DNA of 10,590 nucleotides from Planctomycetales bacterium (GTDB taxonomy: Bacteria; Planctomycetota; Planctomycetia; Planctomycetales; Planctomycetaceae), in the NCBI GenBank assembly GCA_020050375.1, contig JAGVKR010000369.1:1-10590 (forward strand), read 5' to 3'. Shown here in pieces: positions 1,420 through 10,479 of the stretch (its first letter is position 1; each line of letters begins with the position of its first letter). A program made the translations under genes and the position numbers. Below the pieces are notes generated by a model, which searched no databases, was not told the DNA's origin, and saw nothing but the letters and a program-made list of their open reading frames with translations.

Positions 1420-4400
1420 ATGTCTATCTGGGACATCTGCATTCGCCGGCCGATCTTCACGGCCATGCTCATCTCGGCGCCTGTTGTGCTGGGCCTGGCG
1501 TCGTTCGCGCGGCTGGGCGTCGACCTGTTTCCCAACGTCGACCTGCCGATTGTCACCGTGACGACCACGCTCCGCGGCGCGAGCGTTGAAGAGATGGAGA
1601 CGGGGGTCACGAAACCGATCGAAGAGATCGTCAATACCGTTTCGGGGATCGACGAGCTGCGCTCCACGTCCAAGGAGGGGACGTCGCAGATCACGATCCA
1701 GTTCGTCCTGGAAAAGAACGGCGCCGTCGCAGCACAGGAAGTCGACGGCAAAATCCGCACGATCCTCAGCCAGCTTCCTGAGGGAATCGACTCGCCGATC
1801 ATCGATCGCTTCGACATCGACGCGGCCCCCGTCATGACGATCGCCGTCTCCGGTCAGCGCGACATGCGCGAAGTCACCGAGCTGGCGAAGAAACAGATCA
1901 AGGAAGACCTCGAAACTCTTCCTGGAGTCGGGGCCGTGATTCTTGTTGGCGGCCGGACGCGGGCCGTCAACGTGTATGTCGATCCCGAAAAGCTCCTCAA
2001 ATACGAGAACCTCTCGATTGAAGATATCCGGCAGGCGCTGATCCGCGAAAATCAGGAGCAGCCCGGAGGGCGCGTCGATCAGGGGGCGGGGGAGCTCGTC
2101 CTGCGGACGATGGGCCGCATGCGGAACCCAGCCGACTTCCGCCAGTTGATCGTCGCCAACCGGAACGGCCAGCCCGTGCGGATCGAAGACGTCGGTCGCG
2201 TCGAAGATTCGTTCGAAGAGCCGCGCGGCGTCAGCCGGCTCTGGAATAAGGACCGCGATGGCGACGCGACCGAACTTCCGGCCGACAACGCCGTGAGCCT
2301 GATCGTCCAGAAGCAATCGGGGACGAACACGGTGCAGGTCGTCGATCGGGTGAAGCGCCGCCTCACCGAAATCGGCGCACTATTGCCGGCCGACGTGGGG
2401 ATCGAAGTAATCCGCGATCAGTCGCGATTCATCAAGAACTCGATCCACGAGGTGCAGACGCACCTCCTGCTGGCGGCGGTGCTCGTCAGCCTGACGATCC
2501 TGCTGTTCATCCGCGACTGGCGAACGACGATCATCGCCACGCTGGCGATTCCCACGTCGATGGTCGCAACGTTTGCGTTCATGGACCTGATGGGCTTCAC
2601 GCTCAACAACATCACGATGCTCGGGCTGATCCTGGCGGTCGGAATCGTCGTCGACGACGCCGTCGTGGTTCACGAGAACATCTTTCGCCATATGGAAGAA
2701 TACGGCCGAAGCGCCACCGAAGCGGCCTCGACAGCGACGCGCGAAATCGCGCTGGCGGTCGTGGCCACAACGCTGTCGCTCCTGGTGATTTTCATCCCCG
2801 TGGCCTTCATGGGGGGACGCGTCGGGCGATTCTTTTCTAGCTTCGGCTACGTCGTCGGGTTCTCGATCCTGATGAGCATGTTCATCTCCTTCACGATGAC
2901 CCCCATGCTCTGCGCCAAGTTCCTCGTGCTCGAAGAAGGGGGGCACGGCGGCAGCAAAGGGGGCTGGTTCTGGAACCTGGTCGACCGCGTCTACGGCGGG
3001 ATCCTCGCCTGGTCCCTTCGGCATCGATGGGTCACGATCCTTGTGACGCTTGGCGTGCTGGCGGCGACGCCGGTCTTCATCAAAGTCGTCGGCAAGGATT
3101 TTGTCCCTCGCGACGACCAGAGCGAGTTCGAGGTGGCCGTAATGTTGCCCGAAGGTTACTCGCTGTCGCGGGCCGATGAAGTCACCTCCGAGATAGAACG
3201 CCGCCTCCGCGAAGTCCGCGGGGTGACGCACACCTTCACGATCATCGGCGACACCACCGGCCGCGTCTCGCGCGGGCAGGGAGAAGTCACCTCGGCCAAG
3301 ATTTACGCCCGGCTCATCGACCTGTCGGAACGGCCCTATACGCAATTCGACGTGATGGGCGAAGCGCGCGGGATTCTCACCGATTATCCCGACCTGCGGG
3401 CCGCCGTGCAGGATGTCTCGGCCTTTCAGGGGACCGGCTTCCGCCAGGTGATGATCGACCTCAACATGCGCGGGCCCGACATGTCGAAGCTCCAGCAGTA
3501 TTCCGAGATAATAACCGGCTGGCTTCGCGAGCATCCCGAGTACGTCGACGTCGACACCAGCCTGTCGCTGCGGAAGCCCGAGCTGCGCGTGCATCCCGAT
3601 CGCGAGCGGGCCTCGGATTTGGGCGTTTCGATTCAGGCCATTTCCTCGACCGCCAATGTGCTCGTCGGCGGAGAGCCGGTCAGCAAGTACAAGGAGAACG
3701 ACGAGCAGTACGATGTCTGGCTGCGTGCCGAGCAACATGCCCGCGACGACACCGACGCCATCGCCCGCCTGACCGTCCCGTCCATCAAGCCCGGGTTGGG
3801 AACGGTGCGGATGGGCAGCGTGGCCCGGTTCGAATTCGCCCAGGGGCCCAGCACGATCGAGCGGTTCTCCCGCCAGCGGCAGGTGGTCGTCTCGGCCAAT
3901 CTGCGGGAAGGGGTCGCCCTCGGCGAAGGGGTCCAGCGGCTTGGCGATTTCGTGAAAACGCTCGACTTGCCGGCCGATTATCGCTGGGAGTTCATCGGCC
4001 AGGCCAAGACGCTCGGCGAAACCACGAACAACTTCCTGATTGCCTTCGGGCTCAGCTTTCTGTTCATGTACATGATCCTGGCGGCCCAGTTCGAGAGCTT
4101 CGTGCATCCGATCACGATTCTGCTGGCGCTTCCGCTAACCATTCCGTTCGCCCTCCTGTCACTGATCCTGCTGCAAACGAATCTCGACATCTACGCCATG
4201 TTCGGGCTGTTCATGCTGTTCGGGATCGTGAAGAAGAACGGCATTCTGCAGGTCGACTACACCAACATCCTCCGCGAGCGCGGCATGCCGCGCGACGCGG
4301 CGATTCTCGAAGCCAATCACACCCGCCTCCGTCCGATCCTGATGACGACCGTGATGCTGGTCGCGGCGATGATCCCCATGGCGCTCGGCAAGGGCCCCGG

Positions 4401-4602
4401 CGCAGCGTCGCGGGCGGGAATGGCCAAAGTCATCCTTGGCGGACAGACTCTGTCGCTGCTCCTGACGCTGCTCGTCACCCCCGTCGCCTATTCGCTGTGG
4501 GACGACCTCACCGTCTGGTGGCGGCGAAAGTTCCTGCGGAAGTCGTCGGCCATCATCGACCCCGCTCCACTCGAACCGGCGGCACACGAACATGCTTTCT
4601 GA
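1420..4602 (+). CDS. RND family efflux pump, inner-membrane permease (HAE1/AcrB-like)
   Basis: Proton-driven trimeric pump of the inner membrane that would extrude drugs or other amphiphiles through the upstream-encoded adaptor. At 1060 residues it matches the family length (E. coli AcrB has 1049). The N-terminus (SIWDICIRRPIFTAMLISAP) is the usual first membrane helix, followed by the porter signature at about 30-100. The proton-relay residues are visible: Asp412 and Asp413 in transmembrane helix 4 (GIVVDDAVVV), Lys939 in helix 10 (GIVKKNGILQVDY), and Arg969 and Thr976 in helix 11 (RLRPILMTT), corresponding to AcrB D407, D408, K940, R971 and T978. ATG 1420 fits the family N-terminus, although no Shine-Dalgarno precedes it. 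The residues around 285-300 (KDRDGDATELPADNAV) look like a small insertion in the porter domain. The motifs put it with hydrophobic/amphiphilic efflux rather than metal (CzcA) pumps, but the substrate is unknown. Confidence 0.95.
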   Translation: MSIWDICIRRPIFTAMLISAPVVLGLASFARLGVDLFPNVDLPIVTVTTTLRGASVEEMETGVTKPIEEIVNTVSGIDELRSTSKEGTSQITIQFVLEKNGAVAAQEVDGKIRTILSQLPEGIDSPIIDRFDIDAAPVMTIAVSGQRDMREVTELAKKQIKEDLETLPGVGAVILVGGRTRAVNVYVDPEKLLKYENLSIEDIRQALIRENQEQPGGRVDQGAGELVLRTMGRMRNPADFRQLIVANRNGQPVRIEDVGRVEDSFEEPRGVSRLWNKDRDGDATELPADNAVSLIVQKQSGTNTVQVVDRVKRRLTEIGALLPADVGIEVIRDQSRFIKNSIHEVQTHLLLAAVLVSLTILLFIRDWRTTIIATLAIPTSMVATFAFMDLMGFTLNNITMLGLILAVGIVVDDAVVVHENIFRHMEEYGRSATEAASTATREIALAVVATTLSLLVIFIPVAFMGGRVGRFFSSFGYVVGFSILMSMFISFTMTPMLCAKFLVLEEGGHGGSKGGWFWNLVDRVYGGILAWSLRHRWVTILVTLGVLAATPVFIKVVGKDFVPRDDQSEFEVAVMLPEGYSLSRADEVTSEIERRLREVRGVTHTFTIIGDTTGRVSRGQGEVTSAKIYARLIDLSERPYTQFDVMGEARGILTDYPDLRAAVQDVSAFQGTGFRQVMIDLNMRGPDMSKLQQYSEIITGWLREHPEYVDVDTSLSLRKPELRVHPDRERASDLGVSIQAISSTANVLVGGEPVSKYKENDEQYDVWLRAEQHARDDTDAIARLTVPSIKPGLGTVRMGSVARFEFAQGPSTIERFSRQRQVVVSANLREGVALGEGVQRLGDFVKTLDLPADYRWEFIGQAKTLGETTNNFLIAFGLSFLFMYMILAAQFESFVHPITILLALPLTIPFALLSLILLQTNLDIYAMFGLFMLFGIVKKNGILQVDYTNILRERGMPRDAAILEANHTRLRPILMTTVMLVAAMIPMALGKGPGAASRAGMAKVILGGQTLSLLLTLLVTPVAYSLWDDLTVWWRRKFLRKSSAIIDPAPLEPAAHEHAF

Positions 4603-4730
4603 ACAAACGGTTATTTTTCGGCCGAATTGTCAGTGAATCTGCCCGCCCCGCAGCGGCATATCCGTCTGGACAAATTCTCGAAAACCGTCTGTAATCCCTC
4701 GCACCCCTCGGCCACCATTCAAGATCGACC

Positions 4731-4770
4731 CGTGCCGCACCCGGCACGATGACGTTGCATGGATGCAACG
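4731..4770. promoter_or_regulatory. Two adjacent inverted repeats upstream of the TPR gene
   Basis: The first repeat has arms CGTGCCG (4731-4737) and CGGCACG (4742-4748) around a four-base loop. The second, only four bases further on, is CGTTGCATGGATGCAACG (4753-4770), with 8-bp arms around GG. Neither is followed by a T-run, so they do not form a standard terminator. The compact second element, 38 bases before the TPR start codon, has the shape of a binding site for a dimeric regulator or of a small 5' leader hairpin. The function is inference. Confidence 0.4.
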
Positions 4771-4795
4771 ATCACTGAGATTGCACCCTGAGTTC

Positions 4796-4804
4796 GGGAA
4801 GGAA
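4796..4804 (+). promoter_or_regulatory. Ribosome binding site of the TPR gene
   Basis: The purine run GGGAAGGAA ends four bases before ATG 4809. It contains the Shine-Dalgarno core AAGGA and fixes this ATG as the start. It contrasts with the pump gene, which has no such sequence. Confidence 0.6.
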
Positions 4805-4808
4805 CCCG

Positions 4809-5582
4809 ATGAACAGCACCACGAATCGCGGAATCGCCGCCGGCAACCACAGCGCCACCTTTCATAAGGCTGTTGCCCACCATCAGGCCGGCGAACTGCC
4901 CCAGGCCGAGAAACTGTTGCGGCGCATCGTGCGCGTCGATTCGCACCACGCCGAAGCATGGCATCGCCTCGGGATCGTCGAGCAGCAGTCCGGCCGCGCC
5001 GATCAGGCGGCGCAATGCCTGTCGCGGGCCGTCTCGCTCGATGGATCGCAGTCGAACTTCTTTCGCGATCTGGGGGCAGTCTGTCTCGAGCTCGGCCGAC
5101 TCGAAGACGCCGCCGATCACCTGCAACATGCGATCCATCTCACTCCCGAAGATGCCGATCTGCACTATCGATTGGGGGTCGTCCTCCGCCAGCAGGGGAA
5201 CCTGATCGGGGCAAAGCTGCGGTTGCAGCAGGCGACAAAGCTGCGCCCGGAGTTCGTCCCCGCGTGGAACCATCTGGGGCTCGTCCATCAGGCGCAGGGG
5301 GACTTCGCCGCCGCCGCCGATTGCTTCGAAACCGTTCGCCGGCTGGATCCCGATCTGGTCGACGGACACTTCAATCTCGGCCACGTGCGAATGAACCAGA
5401 ACCGCCCGGCGGAAGCCGTGCTCTGTTTCGCCGCCGCGCTCGAGCGTCAACCCGATCTTGCGCCCGCCCTGCAAAGCCTCGGCAAAGCTCTCTCCCAAAT
5501 CGGCCGCACGGCCGCCGCCGAAGCCTGCTATCGCCTGGCGGCAAATCCGCCTGAGCCGCGGCGAAGCGGTCGTGCCGCGTGA
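4809..5582 (+). CDS. Tetratricopeptide repeat (TPR) protein
   Basis: A 257-residue protein made almost wholly of about seven TPR units of 34 residues: roughly 14-47, 48-81, 82-115, 116-149, 150-183, 184-217 and 218-249. Each shows the pattern of small and aromatic positions, for example AWHRLGIVEQQSGRADQAAQ, HYRLGVVLRQQGNLIGAKLR and AWNHLGLVHQAQGDFAAAAD. TPR arrays form superhelical scaffolds that bind peptides or other proteins. There is no signal peptide or membrane segment, so it is probably cytoplasmic. Similar arrays are often the N-terminal part of larger enzymes such as glycosyltransferases or sulfotransferases, but here the frame stops (TGA 5580-5582) after a short Arg/Pro-rich tail, so this is a stand-alone array or a shortened one. 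The partner is unknown, and I see no firm link to the efflux genes. Confidence 0.85.
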   Translation: MNSTTNRGIAAGNHSATFHKAVAHHQAGELPQAEKLLRRIVRVDSHHAEAWHRLGIVEQQSGRADQAAQCLSRAVSLDGSQSNFFRDLGAVCLELGRLEDAADHLQHAIHLTPEDADLHYRLGVVLRQQGNLIGAKLRLQQATKLRPEFVPAWNHLGLVHQAQGDFAAAADCFETVRRLDPDLVDGHFNLGHVRMNQNRPAEAVLCFAAALERQPDLAPALQSLGKALSQIGRTAAAEACYRLAANPPEPRRSGRAA

Positions 5583-6322: not shown

Positions 6323-6587
6323 TAAAAGTCGCGGATCAACCTGGCCGTCATTCAGACGTGTTTCGGCCCATGCCCGCTTCGATCGATGTAACGGATGTGG
6401 GGAGCGTGACCCGGATTTATGAGTGACGTCGGGCCAACTGAGCGTGCCTGCGTCACTCGCCGCACGGTAGGATTCTGCCTCTGCACTTCCGTAAATCAGC
6501 ATTATCCAGATAATGTTCGAGTTCGATCAGTTCGTCATTGGAGCGTCATCGCTCATCTCAACACACGACGACCATGGGGGCCGTGAA
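6323..6587. other. Divergent intergenic region
   Basis: This region lies between the minus-strand small gene and the plus-strand restriction-enzyme fragment, so promoters for both should be here. At 6500-6515 there is an inverted repeat, CATTATC and GATAATG around CA. Its right arm contains GATAAT (6509-6514), which would serve as a -10 box for rightward transcription, but no good -35 lies 16-18 bases upstream. No gene was recognised in between. Confidence 0.4.
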
Positions 6588-7313
6588 ATGCCTGACTTGA
6601 AAACGGCCATTGCCCGATTTGGCGCCGACGCGAAAGCAAAGCTCTCGAATCCCGGCGCGACCGGCGAGCGCGAGGACCAGCTCCGCGCCCCGCTGGAACG
6701 GCTCTTCGCTGATCTCGCGGAGCTTTGCGGCTTCAAGCGGGAGTGGCTCGCGGCAGTCGGAGAATCGTCGCTCTCCACGCTCAAGACGCGGCCCGATTAC
6801 GCCATCACTGTCCGCAACGTGCTCATCGGCTTCGTGGAGGTCAAGGCGCCCGGCAAAGGCGCCGACCCGCGCCGCTTCAAAGGGCACGACAAGGAACAGT
6901 GGGAAAAGCTGCAATCCCTTCCCAACCTGTTGTACACCGACGGCAACTCATTCAGTCTTTGGCAAGACGGCGAGCTTGTCGGCTCGGTCGTCGAGTTGCA
7001 GGGTGACATCGAAACGTCAGGAGCGAAACTCGCCGCACCGCTCGAACTCGTGGCACGGTTCGACAAGTTCCTTCGCTGGGAGCCGATTCCGCCAAAGTCT
7101 GCTGCCGAACTTGCGAACGTCTCGGCGCGGCTCTGCCGCCTGCTGCGCGACGAAGTCACCGAGCAATTGGCCGAGAAAAGCCCCGCCCTCACCGACGAAC
7201 GGGACCAAGTCGGGAGGCAATTTGGCTCAGTAGCAGTCACGCTGTTCCGCGTGTACACCGAGCTGAATCGAACAAGGAGGCTTGGGATCGGACTCGCGTT
7301 CTTGTATTCTTAA
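6588..7313 (+). pseudogene. N-terminal nuclease fragment of a type ISP/IIG-like restriction-modification enzyme
   Basis: The 241-residue frame starts best at ATG 6588 (PDLKTAIARFGADAKAKLSN); an in-frame ATG at 6513 would add 25 residues that do not look conserved. It matches the start of large single-chain enzymes of about 1000 residues that join a nuclease, an N6-adenine methylase and a C-terminal specificity domain. A PD-(D/E)XK nuclease core is visible: RPDY with Asp70, then 13 residues to Glu84-Val-Lys86 (GFVEVKAPGKGADPRRF), plus the helix GEREDQLRAPLERLF before it. Family-like sequence continues through VSARLCRLLRDEVTEQL to SPALTDE (about 7199). After that the residues (RDQVGRQFG...) no longer fit, and the frame stops at TAA 7311-7313. 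The methylase is missing from this piece, and the matching C-terminal end lies 2.2 kb downstream beyond a separate restriction system. It is therefore a broken gene, although its nuclease domain could still be made. Confidence 0.75.
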
Positions 7314-7328
7314 CCGTCGGCACAACAA

Positions 7329-8225
7329 ATGACAATCACTTCACCGAGCGTTCCTGGGCCTCGGAGCAGCTTCGCGGATTACCGCGCAGACGCGGCGAAT
7401 TGGATCACGCTTGCCGGCGGAGAGTATTACCCGGATATTCTTCCAGACGCGTGCGAGCTTTACAAACCCGTGCTTGTGCTATTCGGGCAAATTCTTAAGC
7501 GTTCTGAATCGTCGCAAGCGCTGTTCATGAGCATTTGCGAATTGCGGGAGACGTGGATGCGCATTCAGCTTGCCCGCGTCTTTCGGAAGTACGTCAGTCC
7601 CTCGACACCGGTCGAAATGCTCAAGGGCAAACGGAAGGCGACGACGATATGCGAGCAATTCGGGAGCGGTTTTCGTCCAATTGACCAGGTGCAGTCGGCT
7701 TTCGAATCACGTCCGATTCCCGACGAAGCGCTTTGCGCCGTGCTATGGGAATACAAAGACCGGGGCAAGAAAGGATATGACCTAACGGAGAAGTTCTTCT
7801 CTCTGATCCGCCGGCATTTGCCGAACGTGACGGTGAAGGGTCCGGAACGTGCCGGCAAAGACATTCTTCTGGGCTCGATCTGGCCCGAATACAAACGCCC
7901 TAAATACCCCGTCGACTTCGTTTTCGAACGGGATGCCAGTCTGCTTGCGATCGGGTTCGCTCGGTACGATGGTGATCGTGGCGGCGCGCAGGAGGATGAC
8001 CGCACCGGCGGTTACCACGGCGCGGCTGCGGAAGTACTGGCGTACGCTGTCACTGAAAATCTCCGTAAAGTGAAGCTGATCTTTCTGAACGACGGTCCCG
8101 GCTTGCTGTTGGGGTCAATGTGGTCGGATTATGCGGCGCTCGAAGAGATCGGCAATGGACGTATCATGGTCTGTACCCTTCGGATGGTTACTCAGAGAAT
8201 CACGATGCACTGGTTGGAGTCATAA
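7329..8225 (+). CDS. Putative type II restriction endonuclease
   Basis: A 298-residue protein that would cut unmodified DNA at the site protected by the adjacent methyltransferase. ATG 7329 is the first start after an in-frame stop at 7311; no clear Shine-Dalgarno precedes it. The evidence is mainly context: its stop is five bases before the start of a DNA methyltransferase, the usual layout of a type II pair. The C-terminal third has the feel of a nuclease core: PVDFVFERDASLLAIGFARY (Asp196), then DGDRGGAQEDDRTGGYHGAA, then LIFLNDGPGLLLGSMWSDY. A plain ExK is not visible after Asp196, the corresponding strand reading IGFAR, so the active site would be a variant or use acids in the QEDD stretch (222-224). 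I cannot name the specificity or family. Base composition is lower than in the efflux genes (30 G+C in 7441-7500 against 39 in 4321-4380), consistent with transfer. Confidence 0.65.
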   Translation: MTITSPSVPGPRSSFADYRADAANWITLAGGEYYPDILPDACELYKPVLVLFGQILKRSESSQALFMSICELRETWMRIQLARVFRKYVSPSTPVEMLKGKRKATTICEQFGSGFRPIDQVQSAFESRPIPDEALCAVLWEYKDRGKKGYDLTEKFFSLIRRHLPNVTVKGPERAGKDILLGSIWPEYKRPKYPVDFVFERDASLLAIGFARYDGDRGGAQEDDRTGGYHGAAAEVLAYAVTENLRKVKLIFLNDGPGLLLGSMWSDYAALEEIGNGRIMVCTLRMVTQRITMHWLES

Positions 8226-8230
8226 GGTTC

Positions 8231-9418
8231 ATGGCGACTGGTATTCCATCCAATGGTCGAAATCGTGTGGGGGGCTATTCGCTCCAGTACGCCGGAAAAA
8301 TATCGCGCGAGCAAGTCTTGGTCTTGCCGGACGTACCGCCAACCGAAGTATCCATTGGGTTGAAAGACGGGAAACTGTACCAAGCCGATAACCTCACCGC
8401 GCTGCTATGGTTGCGAAAACAATCGAATATCCGTGGACAAATCCGCGCTGTCTACATCGATCCGCCGTACGCCACGTCGATGACGTTCGTCGATCGCGAC
8501 GTCAAGCACGCCTACGAAGACCATCTCGATGGCGCAGAGTACGTCGAAGCGCTTCGTCGGCGACTGATCGTCCTTCACGATCTGCTTGCCGACGATGGTT
8601 CGATCTTCCTCCACCTTGATCAGAACATGATTTTCGAGGCCAAGCTCGTCATGGACGAGGTGTTCGGCCGCGACAACTTCCGCAACTTTATCACACGGAA
8701 AAAGTGCAATACGAAGAACTACACGCGTAACAATTTGGGGAATATCGCCGACCACATTCTGTTTTATTCGAAGAGCGATCGAAACGTTTGGCACCGCCCG
8801 TATGACGCCTGGACAGTCGAAAAGATCGCCGACGAGTATCCGTGCGTCGATGCCGCAACCGGAAGGCGTTTCAAGAAAGTGCCCGTTCACGCGCCTGGCG
8901 AACGCAATGGTGAGACCGGCAAGGCGTGGCGCGGCAAGCTTCCCCCCAAGGGAAAGCACTGGCAATATCCGCCCGCCAAGCTCGACGAACTCGACGCTGC
9001 CGGCGAGATTTATTGGTCGCCGAGTGGCAATCCTCGTCGCAAGGTCTACTTCGATCGCAGCAAAGGTATTCCGGTCCAAGACATCTGGATGAACTTCAAG
9101 GACGCCCATAACCAGAACATCCACATTACCGGCTATCCTACCGAAAAGAACATCGACCTCGTTCTGCGCCTGCTTACCGCGACGACAAATCCAGGAGATC
9201 TGGTGCTCGATTGCTATTGCGGCTCAGGTACGACACTCGAAGCCGCTGCCATGCTGGGGCGTCGTTTTATCGGAATTGACGCGGCCGATGCCGCCATCAA
9301 GGCGACGGTCAAACGCCTCGCCCAAGGACGCTCAGCCATGGGCGACTTCGTTGGTGCCCGCGCGCGGAAATCAAAACCACCGCAGCGCGGCCAAGCAACA
9401 TTATTCCCCGATCCCTGA
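8231..9418 (+). CDS. Site-specific DNA methyltransferase, beta class (probably N6-adenine)
   Basis: Transfers a methyl group from S-adenosylmethionine to a base in the recognition site, protecting host DNA from the partner nuclease. The 395-residue product starts best at ATG 8231; the frame is open back to 8120 but that part overlaps the endonuclease gene. Motif IV DPPY is at residues 77-80 (AVYIDPPYATSMTF) and motif I is late, at 327-335 (LDCYCGSGTT, where FCGSGTT is more usual), preceded by YPTEKN...TNPGDLVL. Catalytic motif before SAM-binding motif, with a target-recognition region between (about 180-300), defines the beta class. DPPY favours adenine, though N4-cytosine cannot be excluded. 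IADHILFYSKS is a further conserved segment. AAGG at 8224-8227 is close to the start and GGAG at 8216-8219 lies further off. The low-GC patch 8701-8760 (26 of 60 G+C) supports foreign origin. Confidence 0.9.
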   Translation: MATGIPSNGRNRVGGYSLQYAGKISREQVLVLPDVPPTEVSIGLKDGKLYQADNLTALLWLRKQSNIRGQIRAVYIDPPYATSMTFVDRDVKHAYEDHLDGAEYVEALRRRLIVLHDLLADDGSIFLHLDQNMIFEAKLVMDEVFGRDNFRNFITRKKCNTKNYTRNNLGNIADHILFYSKSDRNVWHRPYDAWTVEKIADEYPCVDAATGRRFKKVPVHAPGERNGETGKAWRGKLPPKGKHWQYPPAKLDELDAAGEIYWSPSGNPRRKVYFDRSKGIPVQDIWMNFKDAHNQNIHITGYPTEKNIDLVLRLLTATTNPGDLVLDCYCGSGTTLEAAAMLGRRFIGIDAADAAIKATVKRLAQGRSAMGDFVGARARKSKPPQRGQATLFPDP

Positions 9419-9457
9419 ACGGCTGGGTCTGTTAGCCCGACAATCTGTGGATCGCTC

Positions 9458-10055
9458 GGGCCGCCGCGTCTGCCGAAGGAGCGAGCGCCGCGAATTCCCA
9501 AAGCCGAGGCGATCCCGGACGATCCAGATTCCATGCCCGACGAAATCGACTATGATGAAACAACACAGCGCTTGCTGATCGGAAAGGGTTTCGTCGACAA
9601 CGTGCCGGCCGCAGTGTGGCAGTACGAAGTCTCCGGCAAGCGAGTGTTGACGCAGTGGTTCAGCTATCGTAAAAAAAACCGCGAGCGGCCGATCATCGGT
9701 GACCGCCGGCCGCCCTCCAAGCTCGGCGAGATCCAACCCGACCACTGGCTCGCCGAATACACGACCGAACTGCTCAACGTCCTGCACGTTCTGGCGTTGC
9801 TCGTGGATATGGAACCGGACCAGGCGAAAATCATGGAGGCGATCTGTGAAGGACCAACACTTGATTACCGTCGATGAGCTCCGGGCCGCCGGGGCTTTGG
9901 ACGTCCCCGCCGCTTGGCGCAAGTCACTCGGCGTTGAACGCGTTCAGCGCGACCTGTTTTCCGGCTTGTCCGAGGGTGACGAGTCACTCCGCGAAGCCGA
10001 ACAAGCCACGCTTAGCGACCCGGACGATGACGATTCGGCGGACGAACTTCCGTGA
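9458..10055 (+). pseudogene. C-terminal specificity-domain remnant of a type ISP/IIG-like enzyme, frameshifted
   Basis: From about 9458 one frame reads GPPRLPKERAPRIPKAEAIP, MPDEIDYDETTQRLLIGKGF (ATG 9533), VPAAVWQYEVSGKRVLTQWF, and QPDHWLAEYTTELLNVLHVL, stopping at TGA 9875-9877. This is the typical end of large single-chain methylase-nuclease enzymes (type ISP C-terminal specificity domain). Such proteins continue past ICxGP with (I)xVDELxAAGxLxVPA. Here that continuation, ITVDELRAAGALDVPAAWRK, is present but in the next frame from 9864 to TGA 10053-10055. One extra base near 9863 therefore separates the two parts. There is no methylase domain and no clear ribosome binding site before ATG 9533. 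It is read as the other end of the gene begun at 6588. The same frame is also continuous with the methyltransferase upstream apart from its TGA at 9416-9418. Confidence 0.75.
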
Positions 10056-10479
10056 TCGTCACGACTTGGATCGTGTCCGTCCGGATTCGGCTTGGCCGTG
10101 CCATGTTGTTCAGCGCGAGCTCGCGCCGATTGCCAAGGCGATGCAACGGGAGTTGAACGCACACTTTGAGTGCGCGCCTCGGTCCGACACACCGACAGAC
10201 TCGCGTGCATCAGCACACTGTCAGCGGGTTCCAACAGCCCATCACCAGGCGGATGATGGGGCAGTCGGCTGACGAATTCCTGCCTGAAATCCGGAGGGCC
10301 TCCGCCAATCCGGGAAGTTCAGCCCGCCAGGGCGCGATGAAATAGCCGGCAGTGGCAACCGCCGGTCGGTTGGTCGCGACGAAAGTCAAAGCCCCGGTGA
10401 GGGGCGGCACAACGCGTTTTGCAGTCCCCATCGCCAGAAATGATGGATGCACAACCTGGCCCGGCATGCGCCCGCTGTC
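10056..10479. other. Stretch without a recognisable gene, containing a small hairpin
   Basis: Open frames on both strands (for example minus strand 10467-10210) have no ribosome binding site or recognisable domain, and they are not supported as genes. An inverted repeat with arms CCCATCA (10238-10244) and TGATGGG (10254-10260) around nine bases could form a hairpin after the broken restriction gene, but it lacks a T-run. A tight CGGAGG/CCTCCG repeat lies a little further on, near 10300. The region may be decayed accessory DNA. Confidence 0.45.

Follow-up and report, generated by a model that had tools for sequence, protein, structure and literature searches.

The window studied herein, meaning the whole stretch of DNA that was analysed, is an entire contig (C565; 10,590 nt) of a Planctomycetales bacterium, drawn from one assembly only, which comprises 845 contigs and is 66.6% complete. 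On its plus strand, at 6588-10055, a restriction endonuclease gene (R) and a DNA methyltransferase gene (M) lie nested between two pieces of another restriction gene, in the following order:

8-1237: HlyD-type membrane-fusion protein, upstream neighbour of the locus
1420-4602: RND (ACR_tran) transporter, upstream neighbour of the locus
4809-5582: TPR protein, upstream neighbour of the locus
6588-7194, plus strand: N-terminal stump of a type IIG restriction-methylation gene, 202 codons (PDLC03631 and the relative L091)
7195-9457, plus strand: inserted segment, 2263 nt, in place of 2216 nt of the host gene (borders by alignment to three relatives; GC)
7195-7328, plus strand: insert leader, 134 nt, upstream of R; the N-stump frame ends inside it at 7313
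7329-8225, plus strand: R, BstEII-like restriction endonuclease, 298 aa (PDB 9ibq; 14-sequence alignment)
8231-9418, plus strand: M, DNA methyltransferase (N6_N4_Mtase), 395 aa (Pfam PF01555, 1.4e-45; methylase beside BstEII)
9419-9457, plus strand: insert tail, 39 nt (alignment border)
9458-9877, plus strand: C-terminal stump, last part of a Type_ISP_C specificity domain (PF18135, PDLC03631 and L091)
9846-10055, plus strand: small downstream ORF, 69 aa, in another frame and separate from the C stump, with a GTG start overlapping the stump end

Scanned for PADLOC families, the upstream neighbours (the membrane-fusion, RND and TPR genes and one minus-strand ORF) returned weak TPR-repeat matches alone. 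The window's RND protein reaches at most 43% identity to the RND proteins of the four family members searched. The contig end (10449-10590) recurs, at 71-76% identity, on contigs C674, C412 and C600 of the same assembly and holds TTGACA and TATACT-like boxes, as judged by eye.

The two outer pieces are opposite ends of one gene, as the preliminary description had held. Specifically, the PADLOC model PDLC03631, which represents a type IIG restriction enzyme-methyltransferase over 1086 positions, matches the N stump at 4-187 (E = 1.2e-59) and the C stump at 941-1043 (E = 3.5e-33), in the frames 6513-7313 (true start 6588) and 9533-9877, and a search of the whole assembly gave exactly these two matches and no intact IIG copy. 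Because the stumps are opposite ends of one 1086-position model and lie at the sole two places in the assembly that match it, a chance pairing is excluded. Control genomes match the model too, 3 of 14 at 1e-20 and 8 of 14 at 0.1, and matches in its methylase part alone therefore carry little information. Further, the C stump covers positions 266-340 of the 342 in Type_ISP_C (PF18135; E 4.8e-11). In the N stump, a D...EVK motif presumably marks a PD-(D/E)XK-type nuclease; searched by sequence against solved structures, this stump had no match at E below 0.2.

Matches to the N stump occur in four of 170 same-family genomes, its own included, and hence in three others. An intact 1080-aa gene from a same-family genome (L091) aligns at 6578-7194 (84.3% DNA identity) and at 9458-9878 (85.3%), and DNA identities to the N and C stumps are 75.2% and 76.8% for L092, 77.7% and 76.7% for L093, which is cut by a contig start, and 65.5% and 72.3% for a more distant copy, L094. 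Each of L091, L092 and L093 aligns, as a single reference, to both ends with the middle missing. The one TAA recorded in the best relative is a stop just before its ATG and not within the gene. Genome G110 carries two open IIG-family copies, L091 and L094, which share 88% and 65% identity with the N stump. A reading of the outer pieces as a pair of naturally short genes is hardly credible: each piece is indeed an open frame, but both are contained in single frames of 1080 and 1086 aa in relatives, at near-equal divergence, and both find the same model and the same relatives.

Alignment to the relatives places clean breakpoints at 7194/7195 and 9457/9458. From its ATG at 6588, the N stump is homologous to intact genes up to 7194, where its frame passes into 39 codons of non-homologous sequence that end in a stop at 7311-7313; homology returns at 9458, from which the C stump is open until its stop at 9875-9877, and neither stump has internal stops or frameshifts. 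The C-terminal fragment had earlier been drawn out to 10055, which proved too long, since the stump stops at 9877 and 9846-10055 is a separate ORF. Compared with PDLC03631 enzymes, both ends of which the stumps match, the window has the insert in place of residues 203-941 (739 of 1080, or 68%), a loss that agrees with the first estimate of roughly two thirds and that takes in the methylase and most of the specificity domain. With these gone, the IIG enzyme is presumably now inactive.

The host gene had been described as type ISP/IIG-like, of which the IIG half stands and the ISP half falls. Both gene ends belong to the PDLC03631 family, and the methylase expected in the same polypeptide of a type IIG enzyme, absent from the broken gene in the window, is present in the two intact relatives scanned, which PDLC03631 matches nearly end to end. 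In these two relatives, the stretch deleted from the window holds most of Type_ISP_C, together with N6_Mtase, which passes its Pfam cut-off, and Eco57I, which narrowly misses its own. A related methylase region and the Type_ISP_C specificity domain are shared between the host gene's relatives and type ISP enzymes (LlaGI and LlaBIII). However, in type ISP enzymes the nuclease and the methylase are separated by a helicase-like ATPase of superfamily 2 (PMC4666363), whereas the two intact relatives contain no helicase family in Pfam at E 0.01 and the host-gene relative has 1080 aa against the 1578-residue LlaBIII chain. The methylase region of L091 (residues 307-677) aligns to LlaBIII residues 847-1201, and therefore leaves no room for a helicase in L091. 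Because its intact relatives show no helicase, the host gene is, as classified by homology, type IIG and not type ISP.

The insert had been read as a compact pair of endonuclease and methyltransferase, which our searches bear out, with R a relative of BstEII and M a member of PF01555. R matched nothing at a useful E-value among the families of Pfam, NCBIfam and PADLOC; it is homologous to BstEII (PDB 9ibq, 9ic8) over residues 14-297, with E 5e-85 against 9ibq, and its motifs RGGAQEDDRTG and NDGPGLLLG are invariant in 14 aligned R sequences. M starts at the ATG at 8231, the 8120 of the automatic ORF list being too early, and stops at 9416-9418, and its first residues (MATGIPS) align with the start of the methylase beside BstEII. 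That methylase, from the Geobacillus stearothermophilus plasmid pBSO1, is identical to M at 208 of 380 aligned positions (55%); the R relative on the same plasmid is 50% identical to the window's R and is itself the BstEII chain of the PDB, identical over all 285 residues compared. On pBSO1 (L124), this BstEII-identical gene (3998-4861) is annotated merely as 'hypothetical protein', and transposases lie around it. The arrangement differs between the two systems: on pBSO1, R and M converge and a small HTH gene adjoins M, whereas in the window both genes point the same way, with 5 nt between them.

According to PMC4346585, BstEII cuts G^GTNACC. Because R is a relative of BstEII and M is close to the methylase encoded beside BstEII, R is predicted to cut and M to methylate GGTNACC, a specificity assigned by homology at about 50% identity for R. 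The window contains two GGTNACC sites, against about 3.5 expected from base composition, a difference that says nothing either way. No BstEII structure paper was found by title in the literature searched.

We consider it highly probable that a BstEII-like two-gene type II R-M pair was inserted, in the same orientation, into an ancestral one-gene type IIG system, replacing its middle 2216 nt and thereby destroying it. The insert ends carry neither a target duplication nor terminal inverted repeats, and the insertion qualifies neither as transposon-like nor as one with a long target duplication. No 7-mer is common to the border regions or to the insert ends and the native breakpoints, and no inverted 8-mer connects the insert ends. 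The best direct repeat near both borders (23 nt at 74%, 7102/9470) and the best inverted pair (a perfect 12 nt, 7386/9462) lie off the insert ends, and both are of a size that we would expect by chance in 4.2 kb. Sequence resemblance of the insert to the deleted stretch might have explained their lengths of 2263 and 2216 nt; the best match had E 0.18, so the near-equal lengths are taken as coincidence. An assembly chimera, in which R-M sequence was falsely joined into an intact IIG gene, is very improbable. Fragmentation of the assembly into so many contigs, with a third of the genome wanting, speaks for such an artefact, but it would need two independent misjoins that kept the gene ends ordered and oriented on one contig, neither R nor any IIG part occurs a second time in the assembly, and the borders offer no shared 7-mer to drive a misjoin. 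Against insertion and loss of the IIG system, in turn, the window is a whole contig of a single assembly, in whose missing part a second IIG copy might conceivably lie.

The flanks of the intact genes share with this locus only the small downstream ORF and one 43-nt match, and a related strain with an intact gene at this same locus, which the preliminary description had suggested looking for, was not found; a genome of the same genus (G102) is without R and without the N stump, and its closest counterpart of the window's RND protein is 33% identical. A relative of the small ORF at 9846-10055 also follows the IIG gene in L091, L092 and L093, and the ORF is possibly an unrecognised partner of this IIG branch. 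It is acidic, has no Pfam or PADLOC match at E 0.01, and is missing 28 codons near its start relative to L091.

The stumps themselves hold no clear sign of relaxed drift. Their dN/dS against L091 is 0.079 (N) and 0.172 (C), compared with 0.070 (dS 2.07) and 0.119 (dS 1.35) between two intact genes, where the dS values are high and make the ratios unreliable; the C-stump ratio, somewhat higher than that of the intact pair, counts against the insertion reading. With L092 as outgroup, the window has 7 unique residues against 10 for L091 in the N part, and 9 against 10 in the C part. Because the stumps are open and their unique residues do not exceed those of L091, either the break is recent relative to the split from L091 or the stumps are still constrained. 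The second option would have the N stump working as a stand-alone nuclease, or the C stump as a DNA-binding piece, in partnership with the new R-M pair, the N stump being translated directly before R. The open N stump, its low dN/dS and a frame that ends 15 nt before R agree with this; however, an open frame and low dN/dS are equally expected after recent disruption, the window-specific changes and those of the intact gene are similar in number, there is no methylase, and the specificity domain is reduced to its end. Further, among the 49 of 392 sampled genomes with a match (at most two candidates scored per genome), the window's genome alone has matches to the N end and to the C end on a single contig while the stretch between them is unmatched. 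We thus regard working stumps as quite unlikely.

Promoter capture by R is possible, because R follows the N stump on the same strand and the frame of the stump stops just short of it. It is improbable that the R-M pair both took over the old expression signal and has the N stump co-translated with R as a retained accessory; were that so, the locus would be a defence takeover that reuses parts of the loser. A promoter scan of 6400-10100, a weak tool for such organisms, gave no promoter-like site on the plus strand and three on the minus strand, where 1.2 were expected.

Beyond this locus, a search of the GTDB genome collection found 135 relatives of R. Eighty were kept; judged by their titles, they span many phyla, and the closest ones, at 72%, belong to genomes with Planctomycetia or Phycisphaerales/Phycisphaerae in the title. 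In all 80 kept relatives M directly follows R, although one relative (L071) is cut by a contig end, and the gaps between the two genes are estimated at -31 to 54 nt. Closer to the window, none of the other 169 family genomes searched has R, and neither has any of the other 391 drawn from the phylum, a set that overlaps the family set. GC content is 56% for R and M, 63% for the N stump, 59% for the C stump, 63% for the RND gene and 66% for the TPR gene. This lower GC of R and M relative to the 59-66% of stumps and neighbours, together with the rarity of R in family and phylum, fits horizontal acquisition. Four records place R on plasmids, and none was found in phages or viral contigs. The insert leader alone has no second copy in the assembly and, by blastn against the 80 R-M loci, no match among the best 30 matches listed.

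A habit of this R-M family of landing in IIG genes was considered and finds no support in the examined flanks of the 80 kept loci, some of them short, none of which contains an IIG match (tblastn, E 1e-5, with intact IIG proteins as query). With one large upstream ORF taken at each of 66 loci, the PADLOC families listed (25 of 61) have one member each, as do those listed (25 of 33) for one large downstream ORF at 70 loci; these ORFs were picked by a longest-frame rule, a coarse one to which split genes are not visible. A few of the families listed are other R-M or defence genes, for example MTase_II and pAgo on the upstream side and MTase_II and REase_II on the downstream side.

How the pair came to rest in the IIG gene can be outlined. 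R and M fill the insert save for 134, 5 and 39 nt, and there is thus no room for a transposase or integrase gene. A survey of mobile R-M forms was reportedly made by Furuta in 2010. In PMC4615327, PabI-family pairs are described as inserted with loss of target, the lost stretches being 62 bp, 4 bp and a type II R gene, and in a laboratory study of PaeR7I (PMC3031569) two of 28 products were joined by crossing-over at 1-3 bp of identity. Given these precedents, the lack of end repeats and the lack of room for a mobility gene, illegitimate recombination is the best mechanism. Specifically, an R-M fragment would have arrived by horizontal transfer and joined by illegitimate recombination, as an insertion with deletion. 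Cells keeping the R-M pair would then survive, as loss of such a system may kill the cell and so aid its persistence (as PMC4615327 would suggest). The break would be recent relative to the split from the nearest known relative.

The closest earlier report of such nesting found, in a literature that excludes most subscription papers and all preprints, is the Campylobacter cuniculorum PabI-family case, in which, by the account in PMC4615327, a two-gene R-M system likewise replaced part of another with loss of target DNA. There, however, the replacement took a free-standing R gene and disrupted its M gene, whereas in the window the middle of a single fused gene is gone. Because R-M mobility and the replacement of one R-M system by another have already been described (PMC3874152 and PMC4615327), the case is confirmatory rather than surprising, and what it cleanly exemplifies is a familiar type of event, not a novel sort of system. 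The competition in a defence locus proposed in the preliminary description finds no support in the neighbouring genes or in the differing flanks, and a neutral landing in a gene that the cell can spare accounts for the data equally well. The locus offers a base-resolved case in which one restriction system lands in the gene of another and destroys it; the incoming system has a predicted specificity, and the broken gene has intact relatives for comparison. The case adds to the evidence for movement of type II R-M pairs as two genes and nothing more, through insertion with deletion.
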